From: Microbotryomycetes sp. JL201 | Lineage: Eukaryota > Basidiomycota > Microbotryomycetes | Direction: 5' to 3' | NCBI GenBank assembly: GCA_033819885.1 | Contig: JAQYUZ010000002.1 | Span: 372,001-436,000 of the forward strand | DNA: 64,000 nt | In this document: positions 819-64,000 of the stretch, in pieces | How positions within the stretch are numbered: the stretch's first letter is position 1 | Layout of the letters: each line of letters begins with the position of its first letter | Made by a program: the position numbers and the translations under genes | The notes under the pieces: model-generated | Databases searched by the model: none | Told to the model about the DNA's origin: nothing | What the model saw: the letters and a program-made list of their open reading frames with translations, nothing else

Positions 819-2145
819 ATGGATCCGTTCGAGGCGAGTGGGATCGATGTAAATGCGACAAGACCTTGACGCTGACGCGCGCGCGCGCACGCGTGCAGGT
901 GCGGCTGCAGTTTGTGACGCTCTTGTCGCGCTTGAGCTCGTCGCTGCAGAGCATCCACAAGTGCACATCGTTCGCGCTCAAGCACTCTAGCAGATGTGCA
1001 GACGATATCTGGGACTGCCTGATGGAAGAGTGCGCGCGCGCGTCGCTCAATGCGCGCATCAACTTGCTGTACCTCGTCGACCAACTGCTCGACCTGCAGC
1101 CAACGACAGCGCCCGCCGCCCAGCCACAGTCACTTCCTTACACGGCATTTGCAGCGCGAGACCTGGGCACGCTCGTCAACAACGTCGTCCCAGCATCTCA
1201 GCTCGGCTCGCTCAACCTCATGAGCGCCACTCAGGCAAGTCGCAAACGCGCACGCGTGCGTCTGTACACAAACACACGCTTGCTAACAGCTACTCCTTCC
1301 TCTGTGCGACACAACTGCCAGGTCTTGCAATCTTGGAAGACGAGGCGCGTGTTTGATGCAGCTGTGCTCGACCCAATCTTGAACCAGCTCAGCGAACGCA
1401 GAGCCTCGTATGTTCCTCCTCTGCGGCAACCCTTGATGCCCAAGCAGCTGACTATGGAGGCGATGATGATCTCTCGACTTTAGCATGCGCAAATCGTCGT
1501 CGACAGACGCAAAGCATCCGGAACCTGACAAACAACTCGATCAGCTTTCGAGAAACGATATTCTGAGGCGGATAGAAGACGATAGAGAGAGGGTCAGACG
1601 CACCTCCAGATTATTCGCACGACTGATCGCGCTGACTCGCCCGCGTTCCGTAGCACAAACGACTCCGAGAACGAATCTGGGTCTTGCCCGTTCCGACAAC
1701 AATCTTTACAATCTCTGCTACTCCTGCTGCGCCAGCAGCAAACGCAACCACATCTCTCCCGTCAGCCAAACCATCCCCAACCTCGCCCGCCTCTCCATCC
1801 GACCTGCCTCAAACTCCAATACCACCTAAATCCCTATCAAAGACCACCCGAACGAAACAACTCGCAACATCAGAAACAGCGTCAGCACCTTCAACAAACG
1901 TGCAATCGGCTTCACCAACATCACCGTCATCGCCGTCGAGTCGGCTCGGACCTTTTTTGCCGATCGAGATCGAGTTTAATCAACTGTGGGACGCGGCAAA
2001 GCAAGACCGTAAAGACGATCTCGACCATGATAGTAATCACGACGAGCAACAGAACGAAACAAGGACGAAAAAGATTCGACTAAGCGAAATCGACATTCTC
2101 GCCATGAAGCAAGAGCGCCAGAGGTGTTTCGTTGACGGCATGTGA
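819..2145 (+). CDS. CTK3: CTD kinase subunit gamma (Ctk3)
   Basis: This is the Ctk3 subunit of the CTDK-I kinase complex that phosphorylates the RNA polymerase II C-terminal domain. Exons are 819-833, 899-1234, 1322-1407, 1484-1592 and 1654-2145 (345 aa). The family start MDPFE-VRLQF is rebuilt exactly if intron 1 uses a gcgagt donor at 834; a gtaaat donor at 849 would insert five residues. Intron 2 (1235-1321) has a gcaagt donor and a tgctaac branch site, and its length is a multiple of three. The N-terminal CID-like helices include FALKHSSRCADDIWDCLMEE. The C-terminal domain reads ILRRIEDDRER-HKRLRERIW across intron 4, then EIEFNQLWDAAKQ and ILAMKQERQRCF near the end. It faces KRI1 and converges on UTP20. 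Confidence 0.88.
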
Positions 2146-2358
2146 ACGAAATTAACGGTCTTGTTCGATCGTCACTTGGAATGATGACGTATCATCGATT
2201 GTTGTATCTGTATGCTCCTCAACAAGAACTCATAGAGTAAAGCACGACAATGTATACAACAGCATTCCCGAAAATCTCTAGTCAGAATCATCATTCTTCT
2301 ATTCAAGCAAAACAATCCACCATGTCCTCACGTCACAGTCAACGATAACTTTCCGACA

Positions 2359-8300: not shown

Positions 8301-11300
8301 TTGGGTCCTCAACATGGAAATCGCGCAACTCCTTCTCCTCAAAGACGGGCTCCGAGGCAGTCAAGGCCGTCCGTCGGGCCCACGTTGGCTTCTGAGACAC
8401 ATACAAGTCGTCGGACCGTGTCGCTGCCGACAACAATTGCGTTGACGTGATCTGCCAGACTTGCTCTGCATACTTTTCAGCCAAGAGCGAGAGAGCTTGG
8501 ATCGCTTCGGGCCAGACGGGTTTAAAGTTGAGCTTGAGCATGGCTGTGAGTCAATTCTGTCAGTCGGTCGACGATGACGGGACGATGCGGCGGAACGGAC
8601 CGGTGAGGTAGCGAATAACAATGTCGAGAATAGGTCGAGTGTCCTCGACGTTATCGAGTTGGGCATGTGCGATAATTCCGATCTTGCGGATCTTCATGCT
8701 CTTTTCGCGCGCGCCCATGACCGTAAGCGCCAAATGTTCGACCTCGATGCATTTCGAGATCAGATCGGCTTCGATGCGCTTGTCGTTGGCGGGGAAGAAA
8801 GCAGCCACGAGCCGAAGAGAAGAGAGCCGTAGAAGCGAGTCTTCCGACAAGAGATTGCGGTGGATGGAATGGATCAATGAAGCAGACTCTTCATCTTGAG
8901 CTGAAGTCGGGCTGAAGATGGCGAGATTTGAGACGCTTGCCATAACACCGCGATGCCAGGAGTATCGATCGACAATCTTGAAAGCAAGCGGAGCGAGGTC
9001 GGCTGTAGCAGCGCCGGTCACCGTCTCGAGGGCGACCGCGAGAATTTGTGCCGGATTTGCAGGGCTCGACATGTAATCTGCTTGGGCCACGTCCGCCGAG
9101 CTGTCTGCATATCTCACACACAGCTGAACGAGGTCGCTTTGCAACGCCGTCCGCGAAGACTTGAGTTTCGCTACAATTGATAAGGCGTCCAAGAGTTCAG
9201 TGTCCTGTGTATTGACCATCAGCCATGGGAAGCACTTGTTTTGAGCTCGCAAAGACTCGCCTCTGCTTCGCTCCTCTGCGCAAGATCGCTCTCGGCTGCC
9301 GCCGCTTGAATCACCTCTGAACAGCGGCTTCGCAGGACTTGCTCAAAGAGACTCGCAGAGACCGATGTCGAGGACAACATGGTCGTCAAACGACCCGTCC
9401 GAGCCAGTCTGGCGACCAGAGCCATCCATTTCCTACCAGCAGATGACTCCAACCCGCGCTTGCCGTTTGTGAATAAAATCGGCGACACGAAGGCTGGAAA
9501 CTGTGGCCAATCGAGTTTGTCGAGTATACAGAGGATGGCACACCCAGCGTCTAGCAGTTCGCTCAGGGCGCTCTGCGCAAAAAATCCCTCGAATGCAATT
9601 TTGAATCCGCCTGAGAGCAATTCTTGCAAAGACGCGGCTTGAGCAGCGCTCAGAATGAGTGAACTGTAAATGTCGACAAAGTGGCTGTCGAGATGCTGTT
9701 GTTTTGTGACAAACTTGGCCAAATCTGTCAGGCTGCTGAGCACGCGCGATTTGGCCGTACCTAAAAGTTCTGGCCGGTCAATTCCAAAGTCGCCGACAGC
9801 GTGCAGCGACATGGACTCACCGCTGATTCGTTCACCTTTCCTTGTCGTCAGTAGTGTTTGTAGTGCCCCAATGGCCGCTGACTGGCTGGCCTGATCGTCT
9901 GCCTGGGTGACGCCTCGCAAGACCTCCTCAATGACAGCGTCGATCGGCTCGGCAGTTTCGACGTGAGCCGCAATGACAATAAGGACGTGAGTGATGACGT
10001 CTCGCGGTAGCTGGCAGCCCGAAGATGCTTTGTCGAGTGCTGAAGCATACATAGATCGCAAGATTGCAGGCGTGCGAGAATGCAATACTTGGTTCGCCGC
10101 CTGTTGGAAGTGGCGACATTCAGAATCGGGTCAGGTGCACGGAAAAGGCTTCTGACTCACGCAACAAGCTTCGGCGGTGAGCCACGTCAAGCCTTCCGCC
10201 AGCAGAACTGAGCTACCGTCTTCCTGTCCGCGGCCTTTGCCCTTTGGCCGCAATAGGGTGTGACCTCGTTTCCTGATTTGACGGTGAGCGCCGTCATCTT
10301 GCTCGACCTGGGCCAAATCATCAAACAGCTTCCCGAACAGCGGCTCAATTTCGCCTGATAGTGAGCCATTCTTCGACGTCGACCTCGCTTTGCGAACGAG
10401 GAACGCAAACGAGCTGGCTAATAGCCGTCTCGTCTGTGGCGTCGTGCGGAAGTGAGCCGGCAGGGAAGTTGAAAGTCCAGAAAAACTGGTGGAAGAAGTT
10501 TCTTTACTGGTCGACGCCACCGGCGCAGCGTCTTCACCGTCCATGTCGGACGCATCATCCTGGTCGCTTGCTGGTTCTTGATCCTGTTTAACTTCGTGTC
10601 CCTGCATCGAGTCAAGTTGCTTGGCAGGTGCTCCAAGACCGCGTCTAATGATTTTCCATATGACATCGAGACTGCCTGCGTCGCCGGGTGGCGCTGCAAG
10701 AATGTGACGACCCAAGTCTCGAAAGATCGCTCCAAGCACGTCGTACACGCGTTGCAGGAGCTGTGGGGTTGCTTGAGTGAGCGGCGACGGGATCGTTAAT
10801 GCGACGAGTGTTGTCAAGATTGTGGGCAAATATGGCAGCAGGAGCCTGTCGAGGTCGGTCACGAGTGGCGGCAACAGGCTGAAAAGCGACGAAATGTGTC
10901 AAAGCGGCGCTTCTGCGAACAGCAGTACGTTGTGGGCCAAAGAGCTTGTGCACTCACTCTAGAATCGTCTCCCCACAGAGCTCGACGTCGTGCAGTGGCA
11001 AGGTCAAGCTTGAGCAAATGGCCAGGACAATGTCGTCCCTGTAGTGCACGACGAGCGGCAGGCTGCGAGCCTTTGGCTCTACGGCCCTGTAAAACTTGAC
11101 GAACGGCAATGATAGATTGTTCAAGTGAGACTGAGCCAATGCGTGGCCAAAGAGTGAGTGCGCCTCGTTGTCGGTCGCGAGCGCTTCGTCCTCGCCCTCG
11201 AGCATGTCTCTCCTGTCCTGCACCCGCCGCATGTCGACTTGCATGGACCTCATACGCTGTGCGGGGCTGACAAACTTGAACTGGCGCCCTTTGATGAGCG

Positions 11301-11853: not shown

Positions 11854-12792
11854 ATGACCGACGAGACTCTACCGTTTGGAGTTGCTGACATCAAGGCTTA
11901 CAAGGCTGGCAAGCATTTCGCACTTGAATATTGTCAGCTTAACGGGTTCGAAGAGGTCTGTCCAAATCCGAGCCGAGGAATTAGCGCAGGCAGGTCTGCT
12001 GAACGAACGTCTCGTGTGACAACTCGCAGTGGTCACTCGCAGAGATTCCCGTCCAGTGGAATGACCAAGGTGAGCTCTCACTGCTAAAGAGCGAGTCGTG
12101 CTGTTCGGTCGGCTCGGGTCGAGGAATCGGTCATCCAAGACCAATTCTCCCGCGACAACTGGCAATAAATCTCACGGCATGGCCTCGCTCAGATCCGAAC
12201 AGACATCTCAACAATGCAGTCTATGCGAAATACCTCGAGGTGAATGAGTCCCTAATGCCGTCACGTGACCTCATGAGACTGATCTGGCCCTGTTTCTTTC
12301 CCCTGACAGGCCGGCCGGGTTGGCTTCCTCACGGGCATGATCACAGGCTTGAGAGCAAAAGATCCTTCGATGCCAGATCTACTCAAAATTGGTCCCCTCG
12401 TGCTTGCTCAAGTCTTGATCAACTATGAAGTCAGTAGCTCGAGTTACGGGCAATCCCACAGACCCACGCTAATAATTGGCGTCGCAGCGTCCGGTGTTTG
12501 CACCAGATTATCTGGCTATTGCCCATCGAGTGAAAGCCGTCAGTCTCAAGAAAATGACGCTCGAGTTCTGCTTCATTTCATACAAGTAAGTCCCTCGCAA
12601 TTTTCCCGTGAGCGATTTCTACCGTCTCATGCATCGTCCTCTAGCCAACGCAAGAAGGTTGCCGGCGGTGAGGTTACGATGGTCTCATTTGACCACGCCA
12701 CCCAAAAGGTGGGCGAGCATCACCCGGCGGTTCACAAATTCTTGTTGGAAAGGCTAGCAGCTAGCGAGAATAAACTCAAGGCGAGGTTGTAA
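11854..12792 (+). CDS. Hotdog-fold acyl-CoA thioesterase-like protein, copy 1
   Basis: This is the first of three tandem paralogues. Exons are 11854-11955, 12030-12069, 12193-12239, 12310-12429, 12488-12585 and 12645-12792 (184 aa). The core motif DPNRHLNNAVYAKYLEAGR matches the D-x-x-x-H-x-N-N signature of 4HBT/YbgC-type thioesterases, where the Asp is the catalytic residue. No signal peptide or membrane segment is visible, so a cytosolic or mitochondrial-matrix enzyme is likely; the substrate cannot be read from sequence. All donors in this copy are GT (gtctgt, gtgagc, gtgaat, gtcagt, gtaagt). Intron positions and phases match those of the two copies downstream, which shows descent by duplication after the introns were in place. 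Family assignment is good; physiological role is unknown. Confidence 0.8.
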
Positions 12793-13827
12793 AACAGCTT
12801 TGCTCCTCGCTCCTTCTGGAGTTGCCGCAAACGCGGCTCGGTGTTGCACTTTATCGAATCAGGGAGTCCCATGTGCAAGATCCTCTTTGATGATCTTGCG
12901 ACTTTGTTTTGGGGCTTTTGGCATTCTTGCACAGTCTTGTGATGACGTTGCTGAGTAGAGAGGACTTAAGGGCGTCGAACGATTTTCACTCGTCGCCTAC
13001 GAACACGTCTACGACACCGGCTGTGCCATATGAAGTTGCCTCAAGCGCGGCTGCACACAGGCAGGCGTATCGTGTCTGAATTTGGTCACGGAAACAGTTT
13101 CATTTGAAGTTTGTGCTGCAAAGCCGGCATTCGACGACCGGACGGTCCCGAAAGGGTGACTCTGTTCGCGAGCAATGACGAATGGCAGAGATGCCTCTCC
13201 AGTGCAATGTTTTCCAACCCAGTATGAGCCTCGACCCAGTCAGCCTAAAGGTGTATCGGATTGAAGCGGTGTGCTCAACGCAATCTGTAGATAGTTGCTG
13301 ACATGCTCGTCAAGCTTACGCACGAGCAACATTCCAAAACTCGTGGGTGCACAGAATATTTTGGGGTAGATGTGGCTGGGTTCTTGCCATCTGACGTGGG
13401 ATACGACCACGGACATCCAGCTTTGCTCGAATCCTTCACAAAGAGATGAGAAGGCCCGAAAGGAGCAGGCGAGTGTGCGATCTTTTCACCAATTTTGCCA
13501 AATCAAAGCCATTTTTTGCCATGGGCCTGCTCTTATGCGCATGCTCTGCACCGTGAGGTTCGAAATGCTCGCCTGTCCGAACTCGCGGATGTCCGCGAGG
13601 GTCTGACGCCACGCCAAAGCTCGTTGCTCCGCCTCTTGCCTGAGAGTCTGCGGTTCATCCTGCCTTCTAAGTCAACGCTCCGAAGCAATGGTCGTCTTTC
13701 CGATGGTCCGGCTGTCCGTACCATCCTGACCTCCGGCGTCTCCACCGAATGCCTACCCGGCAACACCGACCTACGCTTTTACTGCATCGGTTCAGGCATG
13801 CTGTCTCTGATCTTTGACCCTATCGAC
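12793..13827. other. Intergenic stretch between thioesterase copies 1 and 2
   Basis: About 1 kb without a gene I can support. I looked for a degraded fourth thioesterase (the HLNNAVYAKYLE and SMPDLL blocks) and found none. Short open frames on both strands lack motifs. The stretch must include the copy 2 promoter. Confidence 0.5.
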
Positions 13828-14647
13828 ATGTCATCCACACTAATCTCTGTGCCATACGGTGTTAATGATGTTGCGGCCTACCAGAGAGGCAAGCAGTTTA
13901 CGCTGGATTTTTGCCGCCGAGATGGCTTTGAAGAAGTCAGTACAGTCAAGCTCGTAGTCCGGCCACATTGAACTGACCAAGGTCGCACATGGAGCAAGTG
14001 GTCGCTTGCCGAGGTTCCTGTGCAGTGGAACGACGAAGGTACAACAAGGTCTCAAAATGTCTACGTCGACCAGCGGCGAGCGCTCACTTTGATCCTCTCG
14101 ATAGACCCTAATAAGCACGTCAACAATTTCGTTTACGCCAAGTACCTCGAAGCTGGTTTAGCGGGGTTTCTATACGGCATGATGGAGCAAATCAAGAGTA
14201 GAGATCCATCGATGCCGGACATCTTATCAAAAGGGCCGTTCGTGATGGCGCAGAGCATGATCAAGTGCCAGGCGAGCGGATCCGCTCCGATGATTAATCG
14301 CACGAGAATGATTCTGAGAACCTCTTGTACAGCGCTCCGTCAGATCGCCAGACTATATTGCCATCGCGCACCGGTGCAAAGAGGTCAATCGCTCGAGAAT
14401 CCTTCTTGAATTCGCCATGATCAGCCTCCAGTAAGTCAGTCCGCTCTTTCTCTCCGACTGCCCTGATCAACTACACTATAGGCAGTGCAAGCAAGTGTCC
14501 AGTGGCGAAGTGCTCTTGGTGGGGTTCGACCAAGATTCCAAAAAAGCGGCCGAACTTCATCCATCTGTCCATCAGTTTTTGCAAGAGAGGACACATGAGA
14601 GTGATAGAAAGCAGAAAAGTCCAAGCTGTAATCAATCGTGTATTTGA
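13828..14647 (+). CDS. Hotdog-fold acyl-CoA thioesterase-like protein, copy 2
   Basis: This is the second tandem paralogue, 192 aa, with exons 13828-13935, 13999-14038, 14105-14271, 14333-14430 and 14482-14647. The catalytic-type motif is DPNKHVNNFVYAKYLEAG. Compared with copies 1 and 3 it has lost the intron that normally follows YAKYLE: the exon runs straight on into AGLAGFLYGMMEQIKSRDP. The next intron (14272-14332) has no usable GT and needs a gcgagc donor after codon CAG, because the following exon RSVRSPDYIAIAHRCKEV lines up with copy 1 only that way. The C-terminal tail is longer and Ser/Lys-rich (ERTHESDRKQKSPS). Function is as for copy 1; the substrate is unknown. Confidence 0.78.
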
Positions 14648-14732
14648 TGGTGACCGTCAAACAATGCGGAGCTCGAGCCTCTCTGAATAGCCGGAACCTG
14701 CAATCGTTTTCAAACCAAGAGCCCGTCTCCCC

Positions 14733-15605
14733 ATGTCGTCTGTACCATTCGGTGTCGCAGATGCTGACAAGTATCAAGCCGGAAAGCAAGCTGCACTCGA
14801 CTACTGTCGAGCTCATGGTTACGAAGAGGTCCGGCCGGCCCGAAGCTCCTAGCCGACACATTCCACCGGAATGCGCTGACATCGCATCGGATCATGTGCT
14901 TGCAGTGGTCTTTAGTTGAAATTCCAGTACAATGGTCGGAGCAAGGCGAGTACGAAGGCGACCTGGAGCGACTGATCGCTCTTCCGGCTCGAGCTCAACC
15001 GGCAGCTGATAAAATACAATCGCAGATATGAATGATCACTTGAACAATGCCGTCTACGCCAAGTACCTCGAAGTGCGTTTGCATGTTCTCTCAACTGGCA
15101 CGTTGACGTTGAAACTCGTTCATTCGCTGGCAGGCCGGTCGCATCGCCTTCACCCGTGGTATGATCAGACAATTGAAAGATGCAGCTCAAATGCGCATGA
15201 TACTAGCTAGAGTGGAGCTCAATTATGAGGTGTGTACTTGCCGGAGAATATCGAAAATGTTCGCCACTCTAAAAAAAATAAAATGGACGCTTGCAGGCGC
15301 CAGCCTTTGCTCCAGACTATGTCGCCGTTTCACACAGATGCAAAGAGGTGAGCCCTCGTAAGATGGCACTGGAAGCCTGCATTTTTTCGTACAAGTGAGT
15401 TCAAGTCAAAGCTTTCGCAAGAGGGGGACCACCGTTGAAGGTTGGTCATGACATCGACAGCCAGCGCAAACGGATAGCAAGCGGCGGAGCAGTCATGGTC
15501 GCGTTCGATTATGACAAGCAGAGCGTCGGCCAGCTTCCGAAAGAGGTGTACGAATTCTTGCAGCAACGGCTCGCCGCAAGCAAAAGACAACAAGCCAAGA
15601 TGTAG
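14733..15605 (+). CDS. Hotdog-fold acyl-CoA thioesterase-like protein, copy 3
   Basis: This is the third tandem paralogue, only 85 bp after the copy 2 stop. Exons are 14733-14828, 14906-14945, 15026-15072, 15134-15229, 15297-15394 and 15461-15605 (173 aa). The motif reads DMNDHLNNAVYAKYLEAGR, keeping the Asp, His and NN. Intron 2 (14946-15025) has a gcgagt donor where copies 1 and 2 have GT at the same codon position. The middle exon is shorter than in its relatives and lacks the KDPSMPD loop, so substrate choice may differ. The gene converges on RBX1 with 125 bp between stops. Confidence 0.78.
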
Positions 15606-16514: not shown

Positions 16515-17592
16515 ATGCGCACATATGGTGGCGCACCTGCCATGGCTGCGCCGGAGGCAAAGGAGGCCAGAGCGCGCGCTGTCTGCCTCCGACCTTGTTC
16601 CGCCGACATCCGCGCTGCTCGTCCGTTGCAACATTTCAGAGCACGCAACGAGAAAGCCGGACGACTTCGCACACTTGAGCAGGGACCAAGCCTGGCTGCG
16701 CCAGTCAGTCGAGCTCGGCGCCTGGTGCGAGTGCTCGCCTGGGCGCCCGTCGCCTTGTTTGTACACGAGCATGTCATATCTGTAGCAACAGTCAACGGCA
16801 GGTGAGGAATTCGCCTCGCCCGCGCTCTGAAGCACGTGCTGTTCGTAGCTGCTCACTTGACTACTTGCACGCCGACAGGTCCATGCAGGTGAGTCAAACT
16901 CTGCACTGAAACACCTCAATCAACTAACAACAAAAACGACCATCTCTACAGCCCACGCTCAATCCTGACAGTTCAATGCTTCAGCGTGACATTGTCCTTT
17001 TGAACAGACTCGCGGCCGTTCAATTGTCTGCCTCGCATGGCCAACAGGGCTTGCAGATTGGGGATGTCGTTGCCGTAAGGTGAGTTTCTTCATAGCCAAT
17101 TTGTAAACGTTGTCGGAAGAACCCGATCGCACGCTCCCATGAACAAGTCTCGCCAAGCTCACGCCACTTGCATGCACCGAATCTTTACACGACAGGTCGC
17201 CTGTCAATCCAGCATCACTCGTAATCAAACGAGTCATCGGTCTACCCGGATCGATAGTCAGAACTCTATCGTCGTATCCGGAGCGAACAGTCAGAGTGCC
17301 ACCAGGACACTGTTGGATCGAAGGCGACGAACCCTTTCACTCGAGAGACAGCAATACGTACGGACCCGTATCTTTGGCACTTGTCGACTCGAAAGTCGAC
17401 TGGATAGTCTGGCCGCCAAGGCAAGCGCGTGTTTCCGTGTCTCCGTCAAGTCATTCGAACCTGACACAAGTTTTGACAGTCGGATCGGTAAAGTGGCAAC
17501 AGGTCCGACAGACATTCACAAACGAAGTGTCCAGCCTCGTAAAGACTTTGTCATTTAGATATCTCATATCAATGCGTGTTGTAACATCGTAA
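16515..17592 (+). CDS. IMP2: Mitochondrial inner membrane protease subunit 2
   Basis: This is an S26-family serine protease of the inner membrane that removes sorting signals of intermembrane-space proteins. Exons are 16515-16801, 16879-16888, 16952-17079 and 17196-17592 (273 aa as modelled). A hydrophobic anchor (VLAWAPVALFVHEHVISVA) precedes the catalytic box VNGRSMQPTLNPD, whose Ser is encoded in a 10-nt exon. The second box, RSPVNPASLVIKRVIGLPGS, carries the catalytic Lys. GDEPFHSRDSNTYGPV matches the substrate-pocket motif that marks Imp2. The protein is longer than usual, with a charged N-terminus and about 50 extra C-terminal residues, so start and end are less sure than the core. Confidence 0.88.
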
Positions 17593-22500: not shown

Positions 22501-25500
22501 GATCATACCTGCCGAGCTCTCTCGGGATTGAGCCCCGATTTCCGACTCAAGGCTTGAACACACAGACGCGCGCGCGTCCTGCAAGTGACGTCAACCCTCT
22601 GCTGCCGCTACTCAACGTCGAAACTTTACCTCACATCACCCTGATGGATCAGCAAAAAATTGGCGACGGTTCTTTCTTAGACGGCGGCTCGAATCGCAAG
22701 AAAGACATCGACGGCTTGAGGCGAAGAAACTCGTATCCACCGACCCCTGCTCGTCTTGTCGAACGCCTTGGCACTTTTGCAAAGCTACGTCGAGAAATCA
22801 AGAGCCGCGTAGACACTTTGCTTCCGTTTGCCGAAGGCGACATCGTCTTTCGCATTGTCACGTCGGCGTCAGTGGACGTCAGCCGTCGGACTTCTGGCGC
22901 CTTCGTGCGCACGCCAAGCTGGATCGAGACCAAGTCAAAGTCGAAACCCAAAAGCAACAGGGCCAGCATTGGTTCAAACTTGGCGCCTCTGAGTCGATCA
23001 TCGTCGAGAAGAGACAGCTCGCCAGTCTCTCAACGCAGCTCGGAAAGTGGCGCTGGCAAAGCCGTAGCGACGCCATCGGCAGAGCCGGTCCAGGTTGTCG
23101 TGCAGACGGCGACGGTCGAAGCCTTGATTGACACGATAATTCTTGGCACTGGTATCTATCGCACGCCTTCAACAGATGCTGATGGACAACCATCGTTGTC
23201 TGGTGGAAGATCACTCTCGCTGGATCGCGACGAGCTCATACACACCTTCTTCTCAGCTTATCATTCGTTTTCGTCGCCTCTGGCTGTTCTTGACATGTTC
23301 CGCAAACGATTCCTCGCCGCGACGAATGCAGCTACTGAACTGGCGGGCCTGACATCCGACCGACCGTTCCCCTCGTGGTCGCTTTCGCCAGCGCCTGTCG
23401 AGTCATTGACGGACACGGCCGTGCAAGAGTCTGCTGCGCGTATTCGCGTTAAAATTCTCGAGGCTCTGCGGTTCTGGATTGCTCATTTTGCGACGGACTT
23501 TCTTGACAGCGACGATCTTTGGTCGTCGACCTTGACGCTGCTAGACTACGTTACCGATCTCAAAGACTGGTCAAACGTCAGCGCTGCGGCACAAGAAATC
23601 AGACAAGAACTAGTTTCGGCAGCGCTGCGACCAAACTGTGCGAGACAAAGTTCGCATGATGCATCGGCAGCAAACACGGTTCGCTTTGATCGAGCGTCAG
23701 CAAAAGATCTGGTAGACCACTTGGATGCACTGTCTTGTACGAGTGCAAAGGACATCACCGGTAAGCTGCCTGTGTGTGCGCGCTGCTGCAGAGCGAAGTC
23801 TGATCAGCTGTTGACCAGAACGAGAGTTGCAACGATGGATCGACGCGCTCGAGATCAGCTCATTGTCAGATCCAGCAGCATGGTATTCTTCCCGACAATT
23901 GTCAGCGAAAGACGAGGAAGATGTGGTCATCGCGGACCCCTACTCGCATATGCTCGGACTGGTCACCGATTCTGCGCTTGCTAAGCATCTGCCGCTGTCT
24001 TTGCGACGCATTCTCGGTAGACATACGCTCGTTCGAAAATGGGTTCTGGCGCACCTGGTCGACCCGAACATCAGTGCGCGAGACCGACAGCTCCGCATGC
24101 TCAAGGCTCTCGAGATGATAGAGCATTGCCGCTCACGTATGGTCAACGTCGCTTTCGGAGGGCAAAAAGAGCCAGTCGAGACCCTTCACGACCCGACAAT
24201 CGCCAGTTTCGTTGAGCGCGCCGTCGTTTCTGCCATCATCGCACCAGAGTCTCGCTTGTTTGCAAGCTCATGGCTAGCCGTGGCATCGACTCGCGGGGTC
24301 GCGGCAATTGACTCTGTCTTGGTCCTTGTCCGGCGCGAACCGATAGCGACGCAAGAAATTTGCACTGTCGACGTGGCATGGGTCGTCGAACGCATGCTCG
24401 AGATTGTGACCCAAGTCGATAGCTTGTCGGATGGCATGGCCATTAACTTTGCCAAACGCCGATGGATCTGCAACATGATCAAGAACGCTGTCGAGCTCAA
24501 TAGATCCCAGCCAAATCAAACACTTGCAAGCTGGTCGGCGCTTGAAGGTCCTGTGCAAGACTCGAGCAGATGGTCCTGGAAGGTGCTCAAAGACGCGGCG
24601 GCAGCCGAAGGAGCAAAGTCGTCGCGCCCGATCAGACCTTTCGCTCGACTCGTTGTTTTACAGCAAGAGAAGTTGAAGCGCGAAAAGGTTGCCAAAGAGC
24701 AAATCTTGAAAGGTCAAAAGCTCGAGCAACAAACGCGCTTGCAAAAGGAAAAGGAAGTTGCTCGGGCCATGGACAGGAGTGTGAATGTGCGAGCGAGGAG
24801 AATGACCTCAATCTTCAACTTTGGAAGGTCAACGACACCTGTACCAACGAATCCGCCTGTCTCGCAGCCGACGCCTTCGGCTCACGCTCTGCAAGCATTG
24901 CGCGAATACGTTCCGCAAGCCAAGCCATATCTCGTTCTTGCCCTTTCAGGCGTAGACGCCCACGCTCTTCAAGATGCTCCACGGTCGTTCGTGTTCGAGC
25001 TGACAACGGAAGACGGTCAAAGATCATTGTTTCAAGCCCCAAACAAGCGGGAACTCGACACTTGGATCGAGCATTTCAAACGAAGCGGCTCTCAGATTGC
25101 TTTCAGACGAGCAACATTCTTGGCGCAGACCGCTTTGGCGGAAGAGTCGGAAGAAGTAGCGACGCGATCACCGAAACCTGCTCTCAGGTCATTGGGCGGA
25201 GGTGAGTGCTTTTAAAGTCTGGGCAGGTCGAGTGAATGTGGCTGACGCAAGCTTTGTACAGTCTTTGCGGTCCCGCTGTGGGATCTGGTGCAGAAAGAAG
25301 GTCGCGATGTGCCTCTACTCGTTGAAGAGGCTCTGGCGGCGATCGAGCGCAGAGGCAAGCAGGCTTTACAGAATTGGTTTCGCCTCGCTGACGTGTCTCG
25401 TTCATGCAGGTCTGTCTGAAGTGGGCATTTACCGCATATCCGGGGAGAACAAAGTCATCCAGGACATGCGAGACGGCATTGACCGTGGTCTCGAGCCAGG

Positions 25501-37149: not shown

Positions 37150-40016
37150 TCAAACGTCTGCGTAAAACGAACCGAGGGCGGCCAGGCCAAAGAATGTGCT
37201 TACGACTCCGACGCTGAAAACAACTGACACCTTGATGGCATCCTTGATGATTCGACGACGTTTCGACGGACGGTCCTCAGATGCTAGCTTTCCTTCGTGG
37301 TCCGTGCAGTGGCGACAGCCGTCCATGGCGGCGACCACAGACTTGTCTTGTGATCGATCTTTGTCGTGAGGCTCTTCTGGCGTGAACACACGATCATTGA
37401 CCCGGTCCGCACCAGGTCCATCTTCAAACGTGCGCTTCTTGCTCCGAGATTTCTTGGCTAATCGAGGCTCGGACTTCTCGGCTTGCGCGCAAAGGCTGCG
37501 TCCCTTGGTTTTGACACACGACACATGTTGACCTGAATGCCTGCGCTTGTTGTAATCCTCCAGACTCATGCTCCCGTCAGAGTCGTCGTCGCCATGCGAC
37601 ACGTGAAATTTTTGAAAGTGCTCGGGATCTCTTTCTTTGCCTTCGCCGATGATGGAGCTTTGGCTGGCTACTTCACTGACGAGCGAGGTCGAGTCGTCCG
37701 TGCCATGGCCGTCTGAGCTACAATCAGAAAAATCCGAGCCAAACTCGGACGAGTCTTCGTACGAAGAGCGTCCGTCCGACCAGCGTCCCTCCGACCAGCG
37801 TCCGTCCGACGAACGTCCATCCGATGAGCTTTGATCCGACGAGCGTTCATCCGACGAGCTTTGATATGAAGAGTCGTCTGACATGTCGTTTTGAAAGTCG
37901 ACCATCCGGATCTTGGCTTGCGGTTCTGGCATACATTCGTCTTTTGATTGAGACACCTGAAGGCGTCTGTCCGTTCCGTCGTCGTGTTCTTTTAGGAGCG
38001 CTGCGAGGGTCGCTTCCGCCCGACTCCATTTTTCGAGCGCTTCGAGGTATTTCTTTCTTTCGCTCTCAATCGTTGGCGGGCTCAAACTGTGGGATTGCTG
38101 TAATTCTTTGACAACAGTCGGTTCTGAGACGTTGGATACTTTGTCAGCACCGTCATCATGCCGATTCGGCTTCGGAGCTCACCGCGATCCGTTGCAACAG
38201 ACAACACACTGGGACTGACTTGTGACTTGCCAAAAGGCTCTTCGTCCATGAGGGCCTCCTGAAGGACGCCTGCTTCGTCGTCCTCGCTCTCCCATTCCTG
38301 CCAGAGATCGTACCCTTCCTCCGGGTCCGAATCTACATCTGTCTGGATCTCGTCCTCATTTGCACTGCCCTCCTCCGACATGTCCTGGTCTTCTTCATCG
38401 AGATCGATGTCACCCACGTCGATGTTGTCACCCTCCTCGTCATCGACTGCGTCCTCTTCGTCAAAGTCAAGGTCAAACCCGTCAAGGTTTTGCTCAGACT
38501 CGTCCGCCTCGAAACTTCCTTTCGCCAAGCGAGGGCTGAGGTGAGCAAGTTCACCGTCTGCGACAGATTCCGATGGCGAAGGCAGGTGACTGGCTTGCGA
38601 GCTGGCATCGTCATCCTTGAGCAGCATGAACCTGTCTATTGAGAATTTTGTTGCCCTACGATTGTTCTGCGAGCTTGTGTCATCAGCCGGAGCTAGAATG
38701 AATGTCTCGATCGAGAATTTCGGAGCTGTGCGACTAAAGTTGTTCAAAGACTTGTCCTCGGTCTTGCTCTGCGGACTATCGGGAGAAGGCAGGCGAAACT
38801 GAGATGCTGGAGGTGGCGAGAAATGTGGGCTGTGAGACGCCATAGCGAATCGAGAAGCAGGGTCGATCGTGGAGGCCTTGGCAATCGGCTTGAGAAGGGT
38901 CACACTTGCGTGTCGCGCAGAGCTCGGTGCTCGCTGCGCGGTCGACGGTGGCAAATCTCGCAATTCACTCTCCGCAGGGCCAGGCTTTTCCTCGCCGTCT
39001 TGCTTGAAATCCAATCTAACTGAGGCGTGCCCGGAACCGAGCTCAGGTGAGCGGCGGATGATGAATGAAGCGCGATTGTCGTTCAAGTCGGGACTGGCAG
39101 ATTTGACGCCCGGATTGGTCTGCTCGAATTTTCTGTCGCCGTCGTCGCGCCCATCGTCCGTCTCCAAGTCGATCAAGTCCTGCTCCGAAAGGCCGAAACC
39201 TGGGCGGCGACCGGAGCGCTGCTGCTGTTCGCCTCGCGGGCGGGCGTCTTTTTCGACAGTGTTGTCCTCGTCATCAGATGGTAACCTGTCTGAACCGTCT
39301 TTGAATGCTTGCGCGCAGGTGTCTTTGTTCTTGGCGCCTGCGACTTTCAGGTCCGCCGACAAAGTGGGGCCGACGCGCCTTATCGGAACTGCAGGCGGAA
39401 GCGGCATGGCAACAGTCTCGGTCGGGCTGACGCACGCTGTGAACGTCAAAGGGCTGCAGATGGCTGTAGATTGAATCAAGCGTTAGACTCTTCTGGCGTC
39501 TGCCGATTTACGATGCTTACTGCCATCATCGCGCAGCACGCTGTGTCCGAACATGACTTGGGTGCCGCTCGTCAGCTGTTCCCGGACGACGGCAGTCAGC
39601 AAGAGAGCCTACGATACGTTCAAAAGTGCCACGACCGGGCTGCAGAGGCTTGCCTTGTACTGTGTGTGGGGCACGAGCTTGCGCAGCTTCGATTCGCCGA
39701 GCTCGCGGACAAAAGTCCCGTTCGCAGAGTCGAGGTCCTCGATCATCGCGTGCTTGTCGTCCACCCATGACACTCTGGCTTGCATCGAGCTCATGACGTT
39801 GCACCCCGGTCCTCTGAACGTGCCAGAGGTCAAGTCGAGGTGTTCGACTTTGGCTCTCGGACCGCGTCCGAGCTGCACAGAGCCGTCGACAGACGCGTAC
39901 CGCTTGATGAGTATGCCGTCGCTGTCAATCAGGCTGAGAGTCGCGCCTGACATCGTGGGCGAGCACAGATGCGCGGTGCAAGACGAACCGAGCGCCGAGT
40001 CGCGCGATCTGGCCAT
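37150..40016 (-). CDS. FHA-domain protein with C-terminal membrane anchor
   Basis: Exons (complement) are 39654-40016, 39521-39575, 38183-39463 and 37150-38123 (890 aa). An FHA phosphopeptide-binding domain occupies roughly residues 35-145: VQLGRGP, SSMQARVSWVDD, DLDSANGTFV, then YKLTSGTQVMFGHSVLRDDG spliced across intron 1. A Ser- and Asp/Glu-rich middle follows, with a short coiled-coil-like helix (SERKKYLEALEKWSRAEATL) and a Lys/Arg cluster. The last 30 residues form one hydrophobic helix (VSVVFSVGVVSTFFGLAALG), so the protein is probably tail-anchored. This layout resembles SLMAP/Far9-Far10 of the STRIPAK complex, but the FHA sequence is too divergent for me to assign it. Intron 39576-39653 uses a gcaagc donor. 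Confidence 0.72.
37769..37873 (-). repeat. 15-bp tandem repeat, seven units, in the FHA gene
   Basis: Seven imperfect 15-bp units encode a repeated pentapeptide of the type S-S-D-x-R or S-D-G-R-W. It is a Ser/Asp-rich linker, likely variable in copy number and a possible casein-kinase-type target. Confidence 0.8.
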
Positions 40017-40139: not shown

Positions 40140-40845
40140 TTACGCCGCATGCCAATTCTCAACTCTGCTCATTGTCGCGCCCGAGCGGGAAAAGTCGCCC
40201 GCTTGAACAAGCACGACAACTTGACTACCTTGCGACAAATTGAATGGGGCTTGATACTGAAGCAAGGTGCGTCCCTCTGCTGAAACCTCGTCTGTGAGCT
40301 CCGGGTCAGCGGCCAGAGTCAGCCCACTATAAGGACTCTGATATCGCTCACAGAATATGTTGTACTCGAAATTATTGGATCCAGGAGCAAGAATGATCAC
40401 ATGCTTCGTCACTGGACCGTTGTCAGAGAAAGTGGCGATGGACACGCTCGGGCATCCTGACAATCGACCACAGCTCGGACCATCGCGACCCGGCGCGTGA
40501 TCAACGAAATGTATTCTGTCGTCTGTTCTGGTGAGGGACAGAAGAGGTTCTGAGCCATCTGAGAGGCCGACCGAGCATAAAGTCGTCAAAGTGGTTTGAG
40601 TAGCGGGTTGCAAGTCGAGCTTGAGCTCGAAAGACCTGCAGGGTCTCGCATTAGCAAACGTACACATTTGGAGCGATAATCTCAGCTTGCCATGTCCATT
40701 CCTCGGAATTATGCGAGATAGAGGAGCTGAGCGGATTGCCGGCTACAGAGGCCTGCAACGCAACTCCTAAGTCATTCGAGACTGCCTGAGGTGCAGCTTT
40801 GGCGAGAAGAGCGAGGACGGCAACAATATGAATTGTGACGAGCAT
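40140..40845 (-). CDS. Small secreted protein of unknown function
   Basis: Exons (complement) are 40691-40845 and 40140-40635 (216 aa). The N-terminus MLVTIHIVAVLALLAKAAPQ is a clear signal peptide with likely cleavage after the Ala run. The mature part is predicted beta-rich (SFELKLDLQ, HVIILAPGS, SQVVVLVQAGDF), holds a few cysteines and ends without an anchor. The intron (40636-40690) has a gcaagc donor and a gctaat branch site; splicing joins EEWTW to SFELKL. I do not recognise a family. An extracellular carbohydrate-binding or effector-like protein is possible, but that is a guess. It is divergent from DRE2 (243 bp). Confidence 0.65.
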
Positions 40846-42797: not shown

Positions 42798-44526
42798 ATG
42801 CCGCCCAAAAAGTCTGCGACGGCTGCTGCAGCCTCGACGAAAGTCAAGCAGCCGCGAGCGGCGTCTGTCAAGAAGGACGCGCCCGCCGCGCCAGAGCATC
42901 CGCCGTTTGTAGACATGATTCAGGCAAGTACTTGATCGGCTACAGTACACCAAGCTGTAGCTAACACAGTCATCTCTGACTTGTGCATGCTATTTGTGCA
43001 ATACATCACGCGTTGCCGTCTCTGACGACGCGTTTGTGGCGGTTTGTTTTGATTGTCGGACGGCGAACCGAGCAGGAGGCCGTCAAGCAGGCAGGAGACG
43101 CTCGCACAGGCGCCTCGAGGCCCGCCATAAAAAAGTGAGCTCAATATTGGCCACCACACGTCGCTCGCGCACGAAAAACAAGAGTGTACAGGGCGCAAAC
43201 GGGAGGCGCGGGTGTGGGGTCTCCTGCGGGGGCGCGCCACTTGGTTTCGACGGCTGTACATTGGTATTCAGGCGACGACGATGGTCATGACATTCTTGGA
43301 AACTTTCTATTGTCCGAGACGACACTTGCTGACTATTATGCACCACGTCTGCTTCTCTTGTCTCTGCTCAAAACAACGCACACGCCGCGATCCTAACGCT
43401 TCCACCAATTTGTCACTGAACGCGTTTCGCTGGCGCATGCGAAATTCGCACAATGTCCATCGACATTGTAAAGTTCAGGTGGATCCTCAACAAGTACAAG
43501 CTCAAGGAGGGCGGCGTGTTCGACAGCCACATTGCCGCTGGTCTCAAAAAGGCCGTCTCGACAGGCAAACTCGAACAACCCAATGGACCAAGTGGCAAGG
43601 TCAAGATTGTCAAGCCTGGATCAACTGCCGCCGGCAAAGAGGTGCGAATTTACAGTCGTCATCTATCGTCGACAGCATGCCTCGTGCTGACTGGGACTGT
43701 CAACTTTTGCAGAACAAGGCGCCAGCTGCCAAAAAGACTGTCGCTGGAACTAAGAAGGTCAGTACTCTACCTTACACCCCGACTAGAGTCAAGCTAAACG
43801 AGTAGTCGAGCGCAGCCTGCTCCCGCCAAAGCACCGGCTGCCAAGAAGGCTGCGCCAAAGAAGGAAACTGCAGCGAAGAAGCCGGCGGTGAGCGTCCATG
43901 CAAAAGCCTTTCTGCCATTTTCAAGCTGACGTTCATTCCTTGTAGGCCAAGGCAACATCGGCTAAGGTGCGATTCCGCTTCAGGCATCGCGTGTCTGAGA
44001 CTGTGTTTCGGCTGACACGACTGCTCACATAGACGACTTCACGCGGAAGTCGAACAAAGAAGGAAGAAGTAGACGAAAAGCCTGCTACAGCAAAGAAGGC
44101 TGCTGCTCCTGCTGCCAAAAAGGCCGCACCGGCAAAGAAAGCGACTACCGTCAAGAAGGAGGCCGCACCAGCCGCGAAAAAGACAACAGCGGCAAAGAAG
44201 GAAGCACCCGCAAAGAAGACTGCTACCAAGAAGGAGACTGCGGACAAGAAGCCGACCTCAGCTGCCAAGAAGGTGCGTTTCGGCCACGGCGAACACAGAT
44301 GGGTGCTGATCAACCGGATCCTTTGTTTCAGACCGCTGCCAAGAAGGAAGTCAAGAAGGCTGCGGACAACACGAAGAAGAAGGTTGCGGCGGGTCAGTTG
44401 ATGTTTGTCACGTGTCGGAGAATGCGCAAAACTTAAGTCATTGCCTCGTTGTCGTTAGCCTCTCAAAACGCTGCTGCTGCCAAGAAGAGGGCGGCCCCCA
44501 AAGCAAGAGGCACGGCCAAGAAGTAA
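42798..44526 (+). CDS. HHO1: Linker histone H1
   Basis: Exons are 42798-42923, 43076-43134, 43479-43641, 43713-43757, 43816-43887, 43946-43966, 44033-44272, 44332-44392 and 44459-44526 (284 aa). A basic N-terminal tail leads into a winged-helix globular domain: PPFVDMIQ-EAVKQAGDARTG, ASRPAIKK-WILNKYKLKEGG, FDSHIAAGLKKAVSTGKLEQ. The C-terminal tail is the usual run of AAKK and APAKK units. Eight introns is many for a histone gene. Intron 1 has a gcaagt donor (42924) and intron 2 is 344 nt, the longest I placed in the window. The acceptor at 43478 is set by the junction AIKK-WILNKY, which matches the H1 fold. Confidence 0.88.
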
Positions 44527-46931: not shown

Positions 46932-49900
46932 TCAACCTGCCAGCTTGCCCTGCAACCTTCTCATCAACTCGTCAACGACAAGCGGATCAACCCTAGCCAA
47001 CCACTCTCGTTCAAACACCTCTGGTCCGACAATGGATTGAGCGAGCTCTAGTTGTTGCGTAATGACCGTACCGAGTTTCATCGAGTGGACCGGATTTTGC
47101 GACGACAGCTGATGGACAAGCGGAGCAAGCATCAGCATTCAGCAAGTCAGGCTCGTTTCACTAATCATTACGAAGATGGGCTCACATCTGCTCTGCGTTT
47201 CGACTCCAAAGTCAATTCGAAATCGGCTTCAATGTCAGACTCGTAATCCTGTAGGTCGTGATAGACTTCGGCACTGTTGAGGATAGGGCACTCTTTGTCA
47301 ACATGACAAAATATGCAACGGCGCTGATACCGTCGAACGGCCAACAAGACTTACTCTCCGTCTTCCGTCTCTTGAGTCTCAGACAAGACGCTGGTCCATA
47401 ATGAAACGATTTCCGGTAACCGAGAGAGGATGGCAGGCCTGGACGATCTGACGAGGTGCGCGAGCGCGAGCGCTGCAAGTTTGCGGTGACTCGCCTTTGT
47501 CATGTTGTCAAGCTGGGCAAACGACATTGTAAGCTTCGTCAAAGAAACCTGAATGCACGGAACCTACGCGGTCCGAGTAGACGATGATGAGGCGTGTGAG
47601 GATGTCCTCCGACGACAAACCAGTCTTGGACGATGCAGAGTCGACGAGATGAAGAAACACGTCTGCTCCGACCAGCACGAAGCGAGACACGGTCGCGAGA
47701 TCTGCGTGAGGCACATTGCATGCAGTTTCAGCAGACAGATTCGAATTGTCTGGCAGCCCCGACATCACACCGAGACTTGCATCGAGAAACGACCAAGGCT
47801 TGTCCTTCAGCTTGTTCGGTAATCACGGGCTGCAACACTTTAATAAAGGTATTTGACTGGTCAAACGCGTTGGCCCAAGAAGTCGCAGGAGCGAGTTGCA
47901 ACGTCGTGTCGACGGCGTGCAGAATCTTTTTGAGCGCGTCGAGCTTGATGTCGCCGAGAATGGTTTCGAACGCCACGGCCAAATCGACAGCGCAGACCTG
48001 GACAGATCGGGTGAGCACCTTGTCCAAGGAACCTTTTCTCGCTTGCATAGGCTCACATGCAGAACAACCGCTGCATCAAGCAACAAGTAGCTCTCGAAGA
48101 TGCACAAACATCTTGGGAGTACGTCGGTCGCGGCAGCGATGAGCGATGCAAGTGTCGGCAACAAGGCAACCATCTCGTTGACTAATGTCGAAGACCTTTT
48201 GAGCAAGGCCAACCACAACTCTAGCGCGTCCTCCTGAAGATAGACGTGCGCAGGCTGTGCCAAATTGCCGAGTTAGCCATATCAGATTGAAACAATGACG
48301 AAGTTACTGACTTGGCTTGGATTGACAGAGTACTGAATGATGGGTGCGCACTGGCTCTGAAGCAGCTGCGATTGATCTCCTAGCGCCTGGAAAGAATCCG
48401 CTATGAGAGAGACAGCCACGCTCGAGCGGATACGCCGATAGACTGACCTCGACCAGCTTGGCCATCGTGACAAGCACAGAGGTCTGAAAGTGCGGCTCAG
48501 CTGCAGTGGTCCACATCGTGTACAGGACCTCTGCCAATTGAGGCGCGAATGGCATGATCTTCAGACGGATCAAAGTCAACTTTTGCTCTTCGGCGGATAT
48601 GCAGTATCGCCCACATTCTCGCCGACTCTGTCGATGACAACGCCCAAAGTTTCGTTCAGTCGCTTCCTTGTGTCGGCCATTTCAACTTCGTCCAACAATT
48701 GAACGACTTGCTCAATGACGTTAGGCAAGTACGGTAGAAACGCCTCTTTGTCGAAATCCCACGTGTCGCACTTTACCAAACTTCGAGCTGCCGTTAACCG
48801 GATTGCAGTGTCTGTTGATTCGTTGCGACCCATCAGGTGCGTCAAAAGAGAGTACACTTTTGTCCGTTCGGCTGGCTTGAGATCGGCGTCAATGTAGTTG
48901 CCAACAAGCCAGGCTATCCGTCTGCGGATGATGCGTTGACTTTTAATGCTAGTCAGCTCAAGCTAAGCGTCAGACTTGGACGGCGATAAGAGATGACGCA
49001 CTTTGAATCTGTGCCTGCAGCTTCTGGAACCAGGCTGCCATCAAGCCACGCTCCAAAGTCGAGTCCATGAGGCAGAAAATTTGGGTCTTGTCCGACAGCA
49101 AAGTATACAGCCTCTTTCAGCAGCAAACCTTGCATATCGATAAAGGCTGGAAACGTGGTCAGCACGGACCGACAGAGTTGCACTCGGCCATAGAACTCAC
49201 ACGATGATTGCTGAAGCATTGCAGCCAAGCTCGGCATGATCAACTGACCATGTTCGGCAAGGAGCATTTTGAGCACGTGTTCGGCGCAAGGCTGACAAGA
49301 TGCGAGCGCCAAGGTCAACTCAGGTTGGAGTTTTGGGACCCAAAAACCTGCTTACCCTCAATTCAAACTCCCATCGTTCTGCCTCTTCCTCGTTCATCCA
49401 CTCTTCAGGGTCTTCAGTCCACCGCTCCAAATCTTCTGGTCTCAAAGGCAAGAGCTTGGTCACGAGCAGCTCTGTATACCTAAGAATAAATTCTGGGGCA
49501 AACTGCACGTCTTGACCATGTGCTAAAGAAGACATGGCTGATCGTAGCAGCAGCATTGATTGAACAACGAAACGCTCAGGGTATAAGCATGTGAATGAAC
49601 CTGCGGGGGAAGTGGCTCAGCAAAGACCGTCTGGTGAGGTTGACGCACGTGAGCGCACTCTGAATGTCCTCAACAACATTGTGGCTGGCGCCTTCGACGA
49701 CGGACCAGTAAGTTTCGACGATTTGCTGATTGCTCCCCATTTGCAGAAAGGCATTCTGATCTTGCTTGAACAGTTTAAGGTACAGCTTGCCGATTGAGAT
49801 GGTTTGTTTTGTCAGAGAGAGTAACGTCCGATTGGGCACCTCGACTGGACGACCCGCGAGCAGCGACACTCGTAGCTGAACTAGCGTGGCCACCTTCGCC

Positions 49901-60883: not shown

Positions 60884-61586
60884 CTTAGTCGCGCGTTTGC
60901 TGAAACGGCCAGTCGTCACGAGTCGCGTATAGAACTGTCAGAGTCGCGAGTGGGCGCACGCGCCTCGACGTGCCGCTGATCTTTTTGGAATGGGCAAAGG
61001 TATAAACGAGGGGCGCGCCTGCACTGCAGGCTGGTCAAGGGACAGCGCGGACCGCAGCGAGCCTGCACTCGGTTTTCACGCGGCGGCGAGGGGATGTGGA
61101 GGAGAGCGAGTCGGTTGTGCGCTCGGACCGCTTTGACATTCCCTTCGTGCATGCGAACAAGGCTTCGAACGCTCAAGACGAGCAGCTGGCATTTGTCGGA
61201 GAAGCTTCAAGCTACAAGCTATCCATAGCCATTTTTGCGAATAAAGATAGCTTTGTTCGGCCGACTGGCGTGCTCCCGCGCCACGAGCTCCAGAAATGAC
61301 GGATCATTCAGCCGTCCCGCGTCGCATCAGTCAGGCTGCTCGTGCTTTGAATTTTTGTACAACAGACAGATTGACGTGACACGAATTCAGTTTCCTGCGA
61401 TCAACGTTCAGACCTCTGTCGTCTCCCTCTCGATGCAAGGCGTTCGGCGTTCTTTTCTTTCCGGAATCTGCGCGCTGTTCCGCCTCTGTGCCCATTCTCT
61501 CTCGCATCAGCAGGACAGCGTTCCGCTTCCTCTGTCCGCTGCCCCAGTCGCCACAGCCACTGCGGTTCGTTCTGCGGACCAAGAGG
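60884..61586. other. Intergenic stretch upstream of the large membrane protein
   Basis: About 700 bp. A plus-strand frame of 67 codons (61096-61299) has no recognisable motif. It probably holds the promoter of the gene to the left and the 3' end of the gene to the right. Confidence 0.4.
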
Positions 61587-62751: not shown

Positions 62752-62817
62752 CTCCTGGCCGTTTATGGCGAAGCGAATGTACACTCTTACACTCTTGGGA
62801 GGACTTGGACATTGGAA

Positions 62818-64000
62818 TTACAGTTTAGACATCAGTCTCTTGAGCCTATCTCTCAAAAGATGCTTTTGCACTGAATAGCCGATACAACGTGTCAATTCCT
62901 CTTCGTCCCATGCCCAATAGCTTACGGTGCTCACCTTTTCCTGTACTGGTTTTTTCAAGAGCTGGAATGAGCTCGACCCATTCCGGTATCGCGAATGCGG
63001 GCATCTTGCCGCGCGAGAACTGTTTCAACTCTCTCTCAAAATCGACTTGCTTGCCGTGCCACGTAGAACCCTCGCGCAAGACCACAAATGCGTGTGGCCG
63101 CTCGCCCCATTTTTCGTGAGGTCGTGCTACGCAAGCGACTTCAAGTACATCAGGGTGTGCCGACAAAGCAGACTCGATGCTCAGACTCGAGATGTTTTCG
63201 CCGCCAGAAATGATGATATCCTTGCTGCGGTCTGGGGCAGTACCTGATGGTCAGCTCGTGCTGACCAGACAACTAGTGCTCGATCAACAACTCGCCTTGA
63301 ATGGCAAAAGTGCCATCCGGTCTTCTCACAGCCAAGTCACCCGTGTGAAAGTATCCACCCGCGAAAGCCTTTTCCGTCGCCTCCTTGTTGTTCCAGTAAC
63401 CTTTCATGACAAGGTTTCCTCTCATAACTATCTCGCCGACTTCCGTCCCGTCAAAAGAAACTTCTTGCAGGTCACCTTCCTTGACGTTGTGCTCCTCGCC
63501 ATCGGGAACAAGTCGGACGACTCTGATGTCATCGGCCATTCGGAAGGCGTGTCCTTGTCTGGCCTTGTCTTCGTAGTAAGTCGGTGCAGACGGGTCGAGG
63601 AAGTAACCCTGTGTCATCGGACCGTACTGCCGAGAATTCGTGTAAGCTAGGGCGCGCTTCTTACGACAGTATGCTCGAGGCTCACCGTTTCTGTAAGACC
63701 ATAGACGTGCGTGATCTGGAAACCGAGTAGCTCGATTTGTTTGATCAGAGTGGCAGTCGGCGCTGCGCCAGCAACCGTTGTTCGAACAAGTTGCGGTGGG
63801 GCACGGGCCATTTTGTGCGTCGCAATAGACAATTGACTGATGTATGAGCCAAAACGCGTGAGAAACGATTCGCCAAGTCTGTCGATGAAAACTCACACCG
63901 TTGGTGCGCCGCAGTAATGCGTCACCCCTCTCTCCAAAAATGATCTCCATACTTCATTGTAGTCCCCGACTTGTCGAAGACAGAGCTGTGTCGACATTGA
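62818..64000 (-). CDS. Peroxisomal acyl-CoA ligase (AMP-binding), 3' part
   Basis: This is an ANL-superfamily acyl-activating enzyme; its 5' half lies beyond the right edge. Exons (complement) are 63897-64000 (continues), 63686-63836, 63296-63626, 62935-63231 and 62818-62870. Motifs in order: ERGVTHYCGAPTVQL, TVAGAAPTATL, HVYGLTET-YGPMTQGY, GEIVMRGNLVMKGYWNNKEA, FHTGDLAVRRPDG, then DRSKDIIISGGENIS hinge and the C-terminal Lys in EKTSTGKVQK. The protein ends RLMSKL, and the last three residues Ser-Lys-Leu are a canonical PTS1 peroxisome signal. Intron 63232-63295 has a gcgagt donor. The sequence resembles short- and medium-chain plant and fungal acyl-activating enzymes; the exact acid substrate is not readable. 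Confidence 0.88.

Follow-up and report, generated by a model that had tools for sequence, protein, structure and literature searches.

Does Microbotryomycetes sp. JL201 (Basidiomycota) carry many more GC-AG introns than other fungi, and, if so, does its splicing machinery read the second intron base (+2) less strictly? The question arose from a 64,000-nucleotide stretch of one contig (C12:372001-436000; hereafter, the window) in a genome assembly of 17,152,241 bases and 92 contigs. A first-pass annotation of the window had placed at least 13 GC donors among roughly 115 introns, which was taken as about ten times the fungal norm, and had suggested that 5' splice-site recognition is relaxed in this lineage, perhaps through U1 or U1-C. 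In the present study, we examined the donors one by one, estimated the frequency of GC-AG introns inside and outside the window, and compared the possible explanations.

GC-AG introns are the main non-canonical class in fungi, with a mean share of 1.009%, and Meyerozyma guilliermondii has been named as an outlier (Frey and Pucker 2020, PMC7072748). GC-AG is the leading non-canonical class in JL201 too, but there its share is raised. Judging from titles and the opening lines of abstracts, we found no report of a genome-wide GC-AG share in Microbotryomycetes.

All 13 proposed donors read GC on the indicated strand, and 12 of them have the motif GC[AG]AG[TC]; the exception is 31575 (GCGCGT). The sites are listed in Table 1. 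GC had been considered necessary at each of them to preserve a conserved protein. Homologues or in-window paralogues support the GC donor at 12 of the 13 sites, the remaining one (40690) being in a protein without a homologue. No Pfam family above the cut-off was found for this protein; its sole match (E 0.054, 14.1 bits, where the cut-off is 31) was weak and was attributed to chance. The GC donor at 40690 is plausible. It had also been stated that several cases (TFC1, KAP120, UTP20, and H1) have no GT alternative that keeps the family motif, which goes too far, notably for 31895 and 47780. Among the sites where a GT donor would also keep the frame are 834, 1235, 31895, 39653, 42924, and 47780, although the protein that results is worse. 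In the case of CTK3, the Pfam score falls to 108.9 bits when GT 849 replaces GC 834, to 113.0 bits when GT 1256 replaces GC 1235, and to 102.8 bits with two GT alternatives. By enumeration of donors, an in-frame GT combination is absent at 14946 (thioesterase) and 25355 (RhoGAP).

Three tandem thioesterase-like (4HBT_2) genes occupy positions 11854-15605 (+); their intron positions are in common and their donors differ. As GC and GT are found at matching positions in these genes, the two donors are interchangeable within one gene family.

A GC donor at 17421, not included in the first-pass annotation, may be an additional case with weaker support. Splicing there would yield a protein ending in ..IVWPPSRIG, which weakly matches the ends of solved signal peptidases. 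IMP2-like peptidases typically carry WPPSR.

Table 1. Predicted introns with GC or GA donors in the window, and two GT counterparts. Positions are those of the window; the slash marks the exon-intron border.
Intron	Gene or domain	Positions	Strand	Donor	Basis
GC-AG	CTK3	834..898	+	GAG/GCGAGT	Pfam CTK3 119.1 bits with both GC introns
GC-AG	CTK3	1235..1321	+	CAG/GCAAGT	Pfam CTK3 119.1 bits with both GC introns
GC-AG	UTP20	9205..9260	-	GAG/GCGAGT	Motif-blind spliced alignment
GT-AG	Thioesterase paralogue 1	12070..12192	+		Counterpart of GC 14946
GT-AG	Thioesterase paralogue 1	12430..12487	+		Counterpart of GC 14272
GC-AG	Thioesterase paralogue 2	14272..14332	+	CAG/GCGAGC	GT intron of paralogue 1 at same position, phase 0
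GC-AG	Thioesterase paralogue 3	14946..15025	+	AAG/GCGAGT	GT intron of paralogue 1 at same position, phase 1
GC-AG (additional, weaker support)	Signal-peptidase-like (S26)	17421..17479	+	AAG/GCAAGC	Gene finder choice
GC-AG	RhoGAP domain	25355..25409	+	GAG/GCAAGC	Full RhoGAP match, 142.5 bits
GC-AG	TFC1	31575..31639	+	GAG/GCGCGT	Spliced alignment; deposited JL201 model agrees
GC-AG	TFC1	31895..31962	+	CGA/GCAAGT	Spliced alignment; YDYRQ as in NB124-2
GC-AG	FHA domain	39576..39653	-	AAG/GCAAGC	FHA 29.0 bits vs 22.4 with GT alternative
GC-AG (possible)	Protein without known family	40636..40690	-	ATG/GCAAGC	Frame join only
GC-AG	Linker histone H1	42924..43075	+	CAG/GCAAGT	Linker_histone 78.2 bits vs 63.3 with GT 42909
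GC-AG	KAP120	47702..47780	-	GAT/GCAAGT	Motif-blind spliced alignment
GA-AG (65 nt, phase 2)	FAP7/AK6, P-loop	56367..56431	-	GGG/GAAAGT	Restores TGTPGTGKTT
GC-AG	Acyl-CoA ligase	63232..63295	-	AAG/GCGAGT	No gap across junction vs two solved ligases shown

For the motif-blind spliced alignment, we used our own protein-profile-to-DNA aligner, which required AG acceptors and permitted given donor dinucleotides, and which made no use of the donor motif. The profiles were built from relatives (22 for TFC1, 34 for KAP120, and 28 for UTP20), and JL201's own records were left out. The alignment covered KAP120, the TFC1 core, and both ends of UTP20, the middle of which is one long open frame. With GT and GC permitted, GC was placed at 4 of the 31 aligned introns (9260, 31575, 31895, and 47780). 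The addition of GC to GT gained 179.8 half-bits. Each of the 14 control dinucleotides gained 0.8-92.1 half-bits, always near these four sites. Once GC was permitted, 13 of the 14 remaining dinucleotides gained zero, and AG gained 4.2 at 9257. Solved UTP20 structures were too distant to inform about the GC site in this gene.

Our window models agreed with the JL201 protein records at 98% for KAP120, 96% for TFC1, and 97% for UTP20, and the differences seen were intron choices. It could be argued that nearby GT donors are used, as in the deposited models at 31895 and 47780, and that the GC sites are an artefact of expecting conserved proteins; the in-frame GT alternatives described above are in line with this idea. 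In the case of KAP120, the deposited model takes GT 47768 in place of GC 47780, which adds four residues (CKSR) that are absent from all 39 other sequences shown (two of these, P0036 and P0037, have unrelated irregularities close by, and P0039 ends just beyond). In the case of TFC1, GT 31899, four bases downstream, was chosen over 31895, so that the deposited protein reads KIYEQAAG, against KIYDYRQAAG in the GC version and KVYDYRQATG in NB124-2. The same model kept GC at 31575. The deposited UTP20 model is without 18 residues at 9260 that NB124-2 has. Thus, a deposited JL201 model was available for comparison at four GC introns, and at three of these it makes a GT-type choice that relatives contradict. 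As the GT versions make indels that are lacking in NB124-2 and other relatives and lower the family scores, as no GT combination keeps the frame at two sites (14946 and 25355), and as one deposited model itself chooses GC, we consider GT splicing at most of these sites very unlikely. The comparison suggests that GT-biased gene prediction damages JL201 proteins. A frequent non-GT donor class also spoiled gene models in the copepod Eurytemora affinis, in which GA and GG donors were reported for about 12% of introns (PMC5714493); the frequent class is GA and GG there, whereas it is GC in JL201, with GA seen once.

The claimed share of about 11% among some 115 introns was reproduced: 13/115 is 11.3% (95% CI 6.2-18.6, P = 2e-10 against 1.009%). 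On our own gene model of the window at penalty -8, which contains 133 introns, the share is 9.8% (13/133, CI 5.3-16.1, P = 1e-9 against 1.009%). We therefore estimate the GC-AG share in the window at about 10-11%. The curated set for the window comprises 84 introns (70 GT, 13 GC, and 1 GA), and its figure of 15.5% (13/84) is too high because small genes were picked for the claimed sites, which enriched GC. Forty-four of the 70 curated GT introns are in KAP120, UTP20, TFC1, PAP1, RBX1, and DHOase, and these were checked by spliced alignment or by alignment of the joined protein to a solved structure (RBX1 was joined by hand). Further GT introns were checked separately, whereas the placement of those in thioesterase paralogues 2 and 3 and at 1408, 17080, and 42132 relied on reading frames and the gene finder. 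In plain hexamer counts, for which no gene models were used, GC donors did not stand out from the background. Two self-training procedures were dropped: that of the splice model predicted too many introns, and that of the donor prior drove GC to 10.5% in the sample from contig C1 and 13.7% in the window. They were replaced by a fixed weight matrix with a single control dinucleotide per run.

The sample from outside the window was made up of C1:200001-400000 and C5:100001-180000, parts of two further contigs of this assembly that total 280 kb. Genes were predicted with an HMM whose donor weights were derived from the curated GT introns, and each run permitted GT plus one other dinucleotide at equal prior. 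At a prior of 0.01, 32 GC introns were predicted beside 605 GT introns, and the 14 controls gave a mean of 7.1 and a maximum of 10. At a prior of 0.04, there were 58 GC introns beside 595 GT introns (controls: mean 17.6, maximum 26). After subtraction of the controls, the GC excess in the 280 kb is 3.9-6.2%, which is below the window figure. When all non-GT dinucleotides were permitted together, GC accounted for 18 of 461 introns in this sample. Since, of the curated introns in the window, the HMM recovered 10 of 13 with GC and 64 of 70 with GT, the true genome-wide share is probably 5-8%, a figure that we infer from the sample. The window (11 GC and 119 GT) and the outside sample did not differ significantly (Fisher p = 0.14 and 0.62). 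GC donors are thus far above the fungal mean of 1.009% also beyond the window, in this control-corrected sample of 280 kb. The factor of ten proposed earlier fits the window, but the outside sample points to a factor of about four to six relative to the fungal mean.

Ten of the 32 outside GC cases, chosen for a recognisable domain, were scored against Pfam with and without the GC intron. In all ten, the GC version gave the better score for the main domain. The gain was under 2 bits in two cases (DEAD, 0.5 bits; DSHCT, 1.9 bits) and 11.4-59.8 bits in seven others, and in the remaining case a C1 domain was detected only in the GC version. For the DEAD protein, the GC version gave a secondary ResIII match that was weaker by 0.8 bits.

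Sequencing or assembly errors at true GT donors would be another source of C at +2. Such errors would not single out one dinucleotide at donors with strong contexts and across several contigs, and we regard the chance that they account for the GC donors as very small. The case in which an error of one base would count most is the lone GA-AG intron, predicted in the P-loop of FAP7/AK6. At this site, GA is the only donor among the 16 dinucleotides that gives TGTPGTGKTT, and the joined protein aligns with human AK6 with no gap across the P-loop. With human AK6 as the sole profile, GA gained 33.0 half-bits and any other dinucleotide at most 14.2; the 33.0 half-bits do not come from 56431 alone, as a second, doubtful GA intron was used in the same run. 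Thus, GA as the donor at 56431 is well supported by the protein comparison, a base error being possible. In the 280 kb at a prior of 0.01, GA (6) and GG (5) were at the control level (mean 7.1), so that the GA-AG intron of FAP7 seems to be an isolated case. It suggests some tolerance at +2 beyond C.

The surroundings of the GC donors bear on how they could be recognized. Among the curated introns, R-A-G at +3 to +5 is present in 12 of 13 GC donors and 30 of 70 GT donors, G at -1 in 11 of 13 and 29 of 70, and matches to CAG/GTAAGT with +2 ignored average 6.23 of 8 and 4.63 of 8, respectively (p = 1.4e-6); these curated GC contexts may be biased, as the first-pass annotation and the gene finder both sought strong donors. 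In the outside sample, R-A-G is found in 27 of 32 GC donors and in 28 of 100 pooled control predictions. As all of these were obtained with one weight matrix, the excess is not an effect of the matrix. Away from +2, the GC donors therefore appear to be stronger, not looser, than GT donors, as would be expected if they are compensated in a U1 duplex of the normal kind.

We think it likely that these introns belong to the ordinary U2-type GC-AG class and that, with a strong context as compensation, they accumulated in an intron-rich genome. In accordance with this class, they start with GC and end with AG in positions with protein evidence, and the remainder of the donor is nearer to the U1 consensus than that of GT donors. 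The normal major spliceosome would splice them. C at +2 would lose one base pair with U1, and the site would survive when NAG before it and R-A-G-Y after it pair near-perfectly with U1. GT-to-GC changes at strong donors would then be tolerated, and they would pile up to about 5-8% genome-wide and about 10% in the window. We infer that the introns are actually spliced and that near-neutral accumulation is the cause. In mammalian GC-AG introns, 298 GT>GC events against 40 GC>GT events were reported, so that GT-to-GC changes accumulate, and compensation by a strong remaining donor context was described (Churbanov et al. 2008, PMC2490688). GC makes up under 1% of donors in mammals, as compared with about 5-10% in JL201. 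The excess in JL201 is a raised instance of this known intron class.

The curated GT donors are themselves loose at several positions: among the 70, C accounts for 24% of the bases at +3 and 23% at +4, and G for only 41% at -1, while G reaches 96% at +5.

A change outside the U1 5' end (in a U1 protein, LUC7, U6 contacts, Prp8, or an RNA modification) might also cause +2 to be read less strictly, with GC and, rarely, GA being accepted. The one well-supported GA-AG intron, the presence of C at +3, and likewise at +4, in roughly one GT donor in four, and the divergence of the U1 candidate described below would agree with such a change. However, the context at GC donors is stronger and not weaker, GA and GG stay at the control level in the 280 kb, and the U1 pairing bases and the U1-C finger (read by eye) look canonical. 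We consider this explanation unlikely. The relaxed recognition suggested by the first-pass annotation may apply in a limited sense, through C at +3 and +4 of GT donors and the single GA-AG intron.

In the genome, the sole U1 snRNA locus found (L001:1501-1678, on contig C7) starts with AUACUUACCUUG and retains the A opposite the U at +2. Its first ten bases (AUACUUACCU) correspond to the canonical pairing region and are followed by UG where GG is usual. Past these ten bases the candidate is divergent, and its score of 31.1 bits is under the Rfam gathering score of 69.5. A search of the genome with the DNA of this locus found no second copy of U1. At the one locus found, the base opposite +2 is thus not altered to pair with C, contrary to the proposal of a change in U1. 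The zinc finger of U1-C, read by eye from two exons, is MGKYYCDYCDVHLTHDSAS/VRKAHNSGRNHLTNVREYY, which appears to match the usual U1-C motif. The U1-C gene (L022:1501-1740, on contig C19) has an intron within the region coding for the zinc finger, with a GTCAGT donor, also read by eye. An altered U1 or U1-C as the cause is not supported by the one U1 locus found or by this reading of U1-C by eye. As the GC donors have a strong context, as in known GC compensation, a change in either is not needed. If +2 is nevertheless read in a truly relaxed way with the U1 pairing bases unchanged, for which we see a small chance, the cause would be in a protein, U6, or RNA modification. In that case, +2 would be scored as one tolerable mismatch among others, GC would be common, GA would be possible, and the frequent C at +3 and +4 would fit in.

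Close parallels include GC-AG-rich algae, for which shares of 39.6% in Aureococcus, 22.2% in Micromonas pusilla, and 7.7% in Chlorella were reported (Iwata and Gotoh 2011, PMC3033335). A raised GC-AG share goes with an unchanged U1 5' end in both these algae and JL201. G+C is 69.5% in Aureococcus and 65.9% in Micromonas pusilla (PMC3033335), as compared with about 55% in JL201. As the latter is not extreme, G+C by itself does not explain the GC-AG share of JL201. The algal counts came from transcripts (PMC3033335), whereas the JL201 figures come from the genome sequence. With JL201, the short list of eukaryotes in which the GC-AG share is clearly raised gains a small fungal genome, and comparison with relatives, NB124-2 and JL221 among them, makes it possible to test what sets the cost of a mismatch at +2.

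Hamamotoa singularis belongs to Microbotryomycetes. In the bglA gene, cDNA-supported GC-AG introns were reported for 1 of 18 introns in this species and 1 of 21 in Rhodotorula minuta (PMC9142197). These basidiomycetous yeasts thus have GC-AG introns as JL201 does, but the figures are for single genes and not a genome-wide share. Odd borders (TT-GG and others) in a protease gene of Glaciozyma antarctica (PMC4100274) were set aside, as they look like alignment slips.

Other splicing factors were also searched for in the genome. Matches to the LUC7 family and to Methyltransf_10 are present; assignment of the latter as METTL16 is tentative because the family also matches bacterial genes. The ACAGAGA box of the U6 snRNA is canonical. 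The U6 gene (L033:1548-1614, on contig C63) contains an apparent 67-nt GT-AG intron directly after ACAGAGAA, adjoining the catalytic box. U6 introns are known in related red yeasts.
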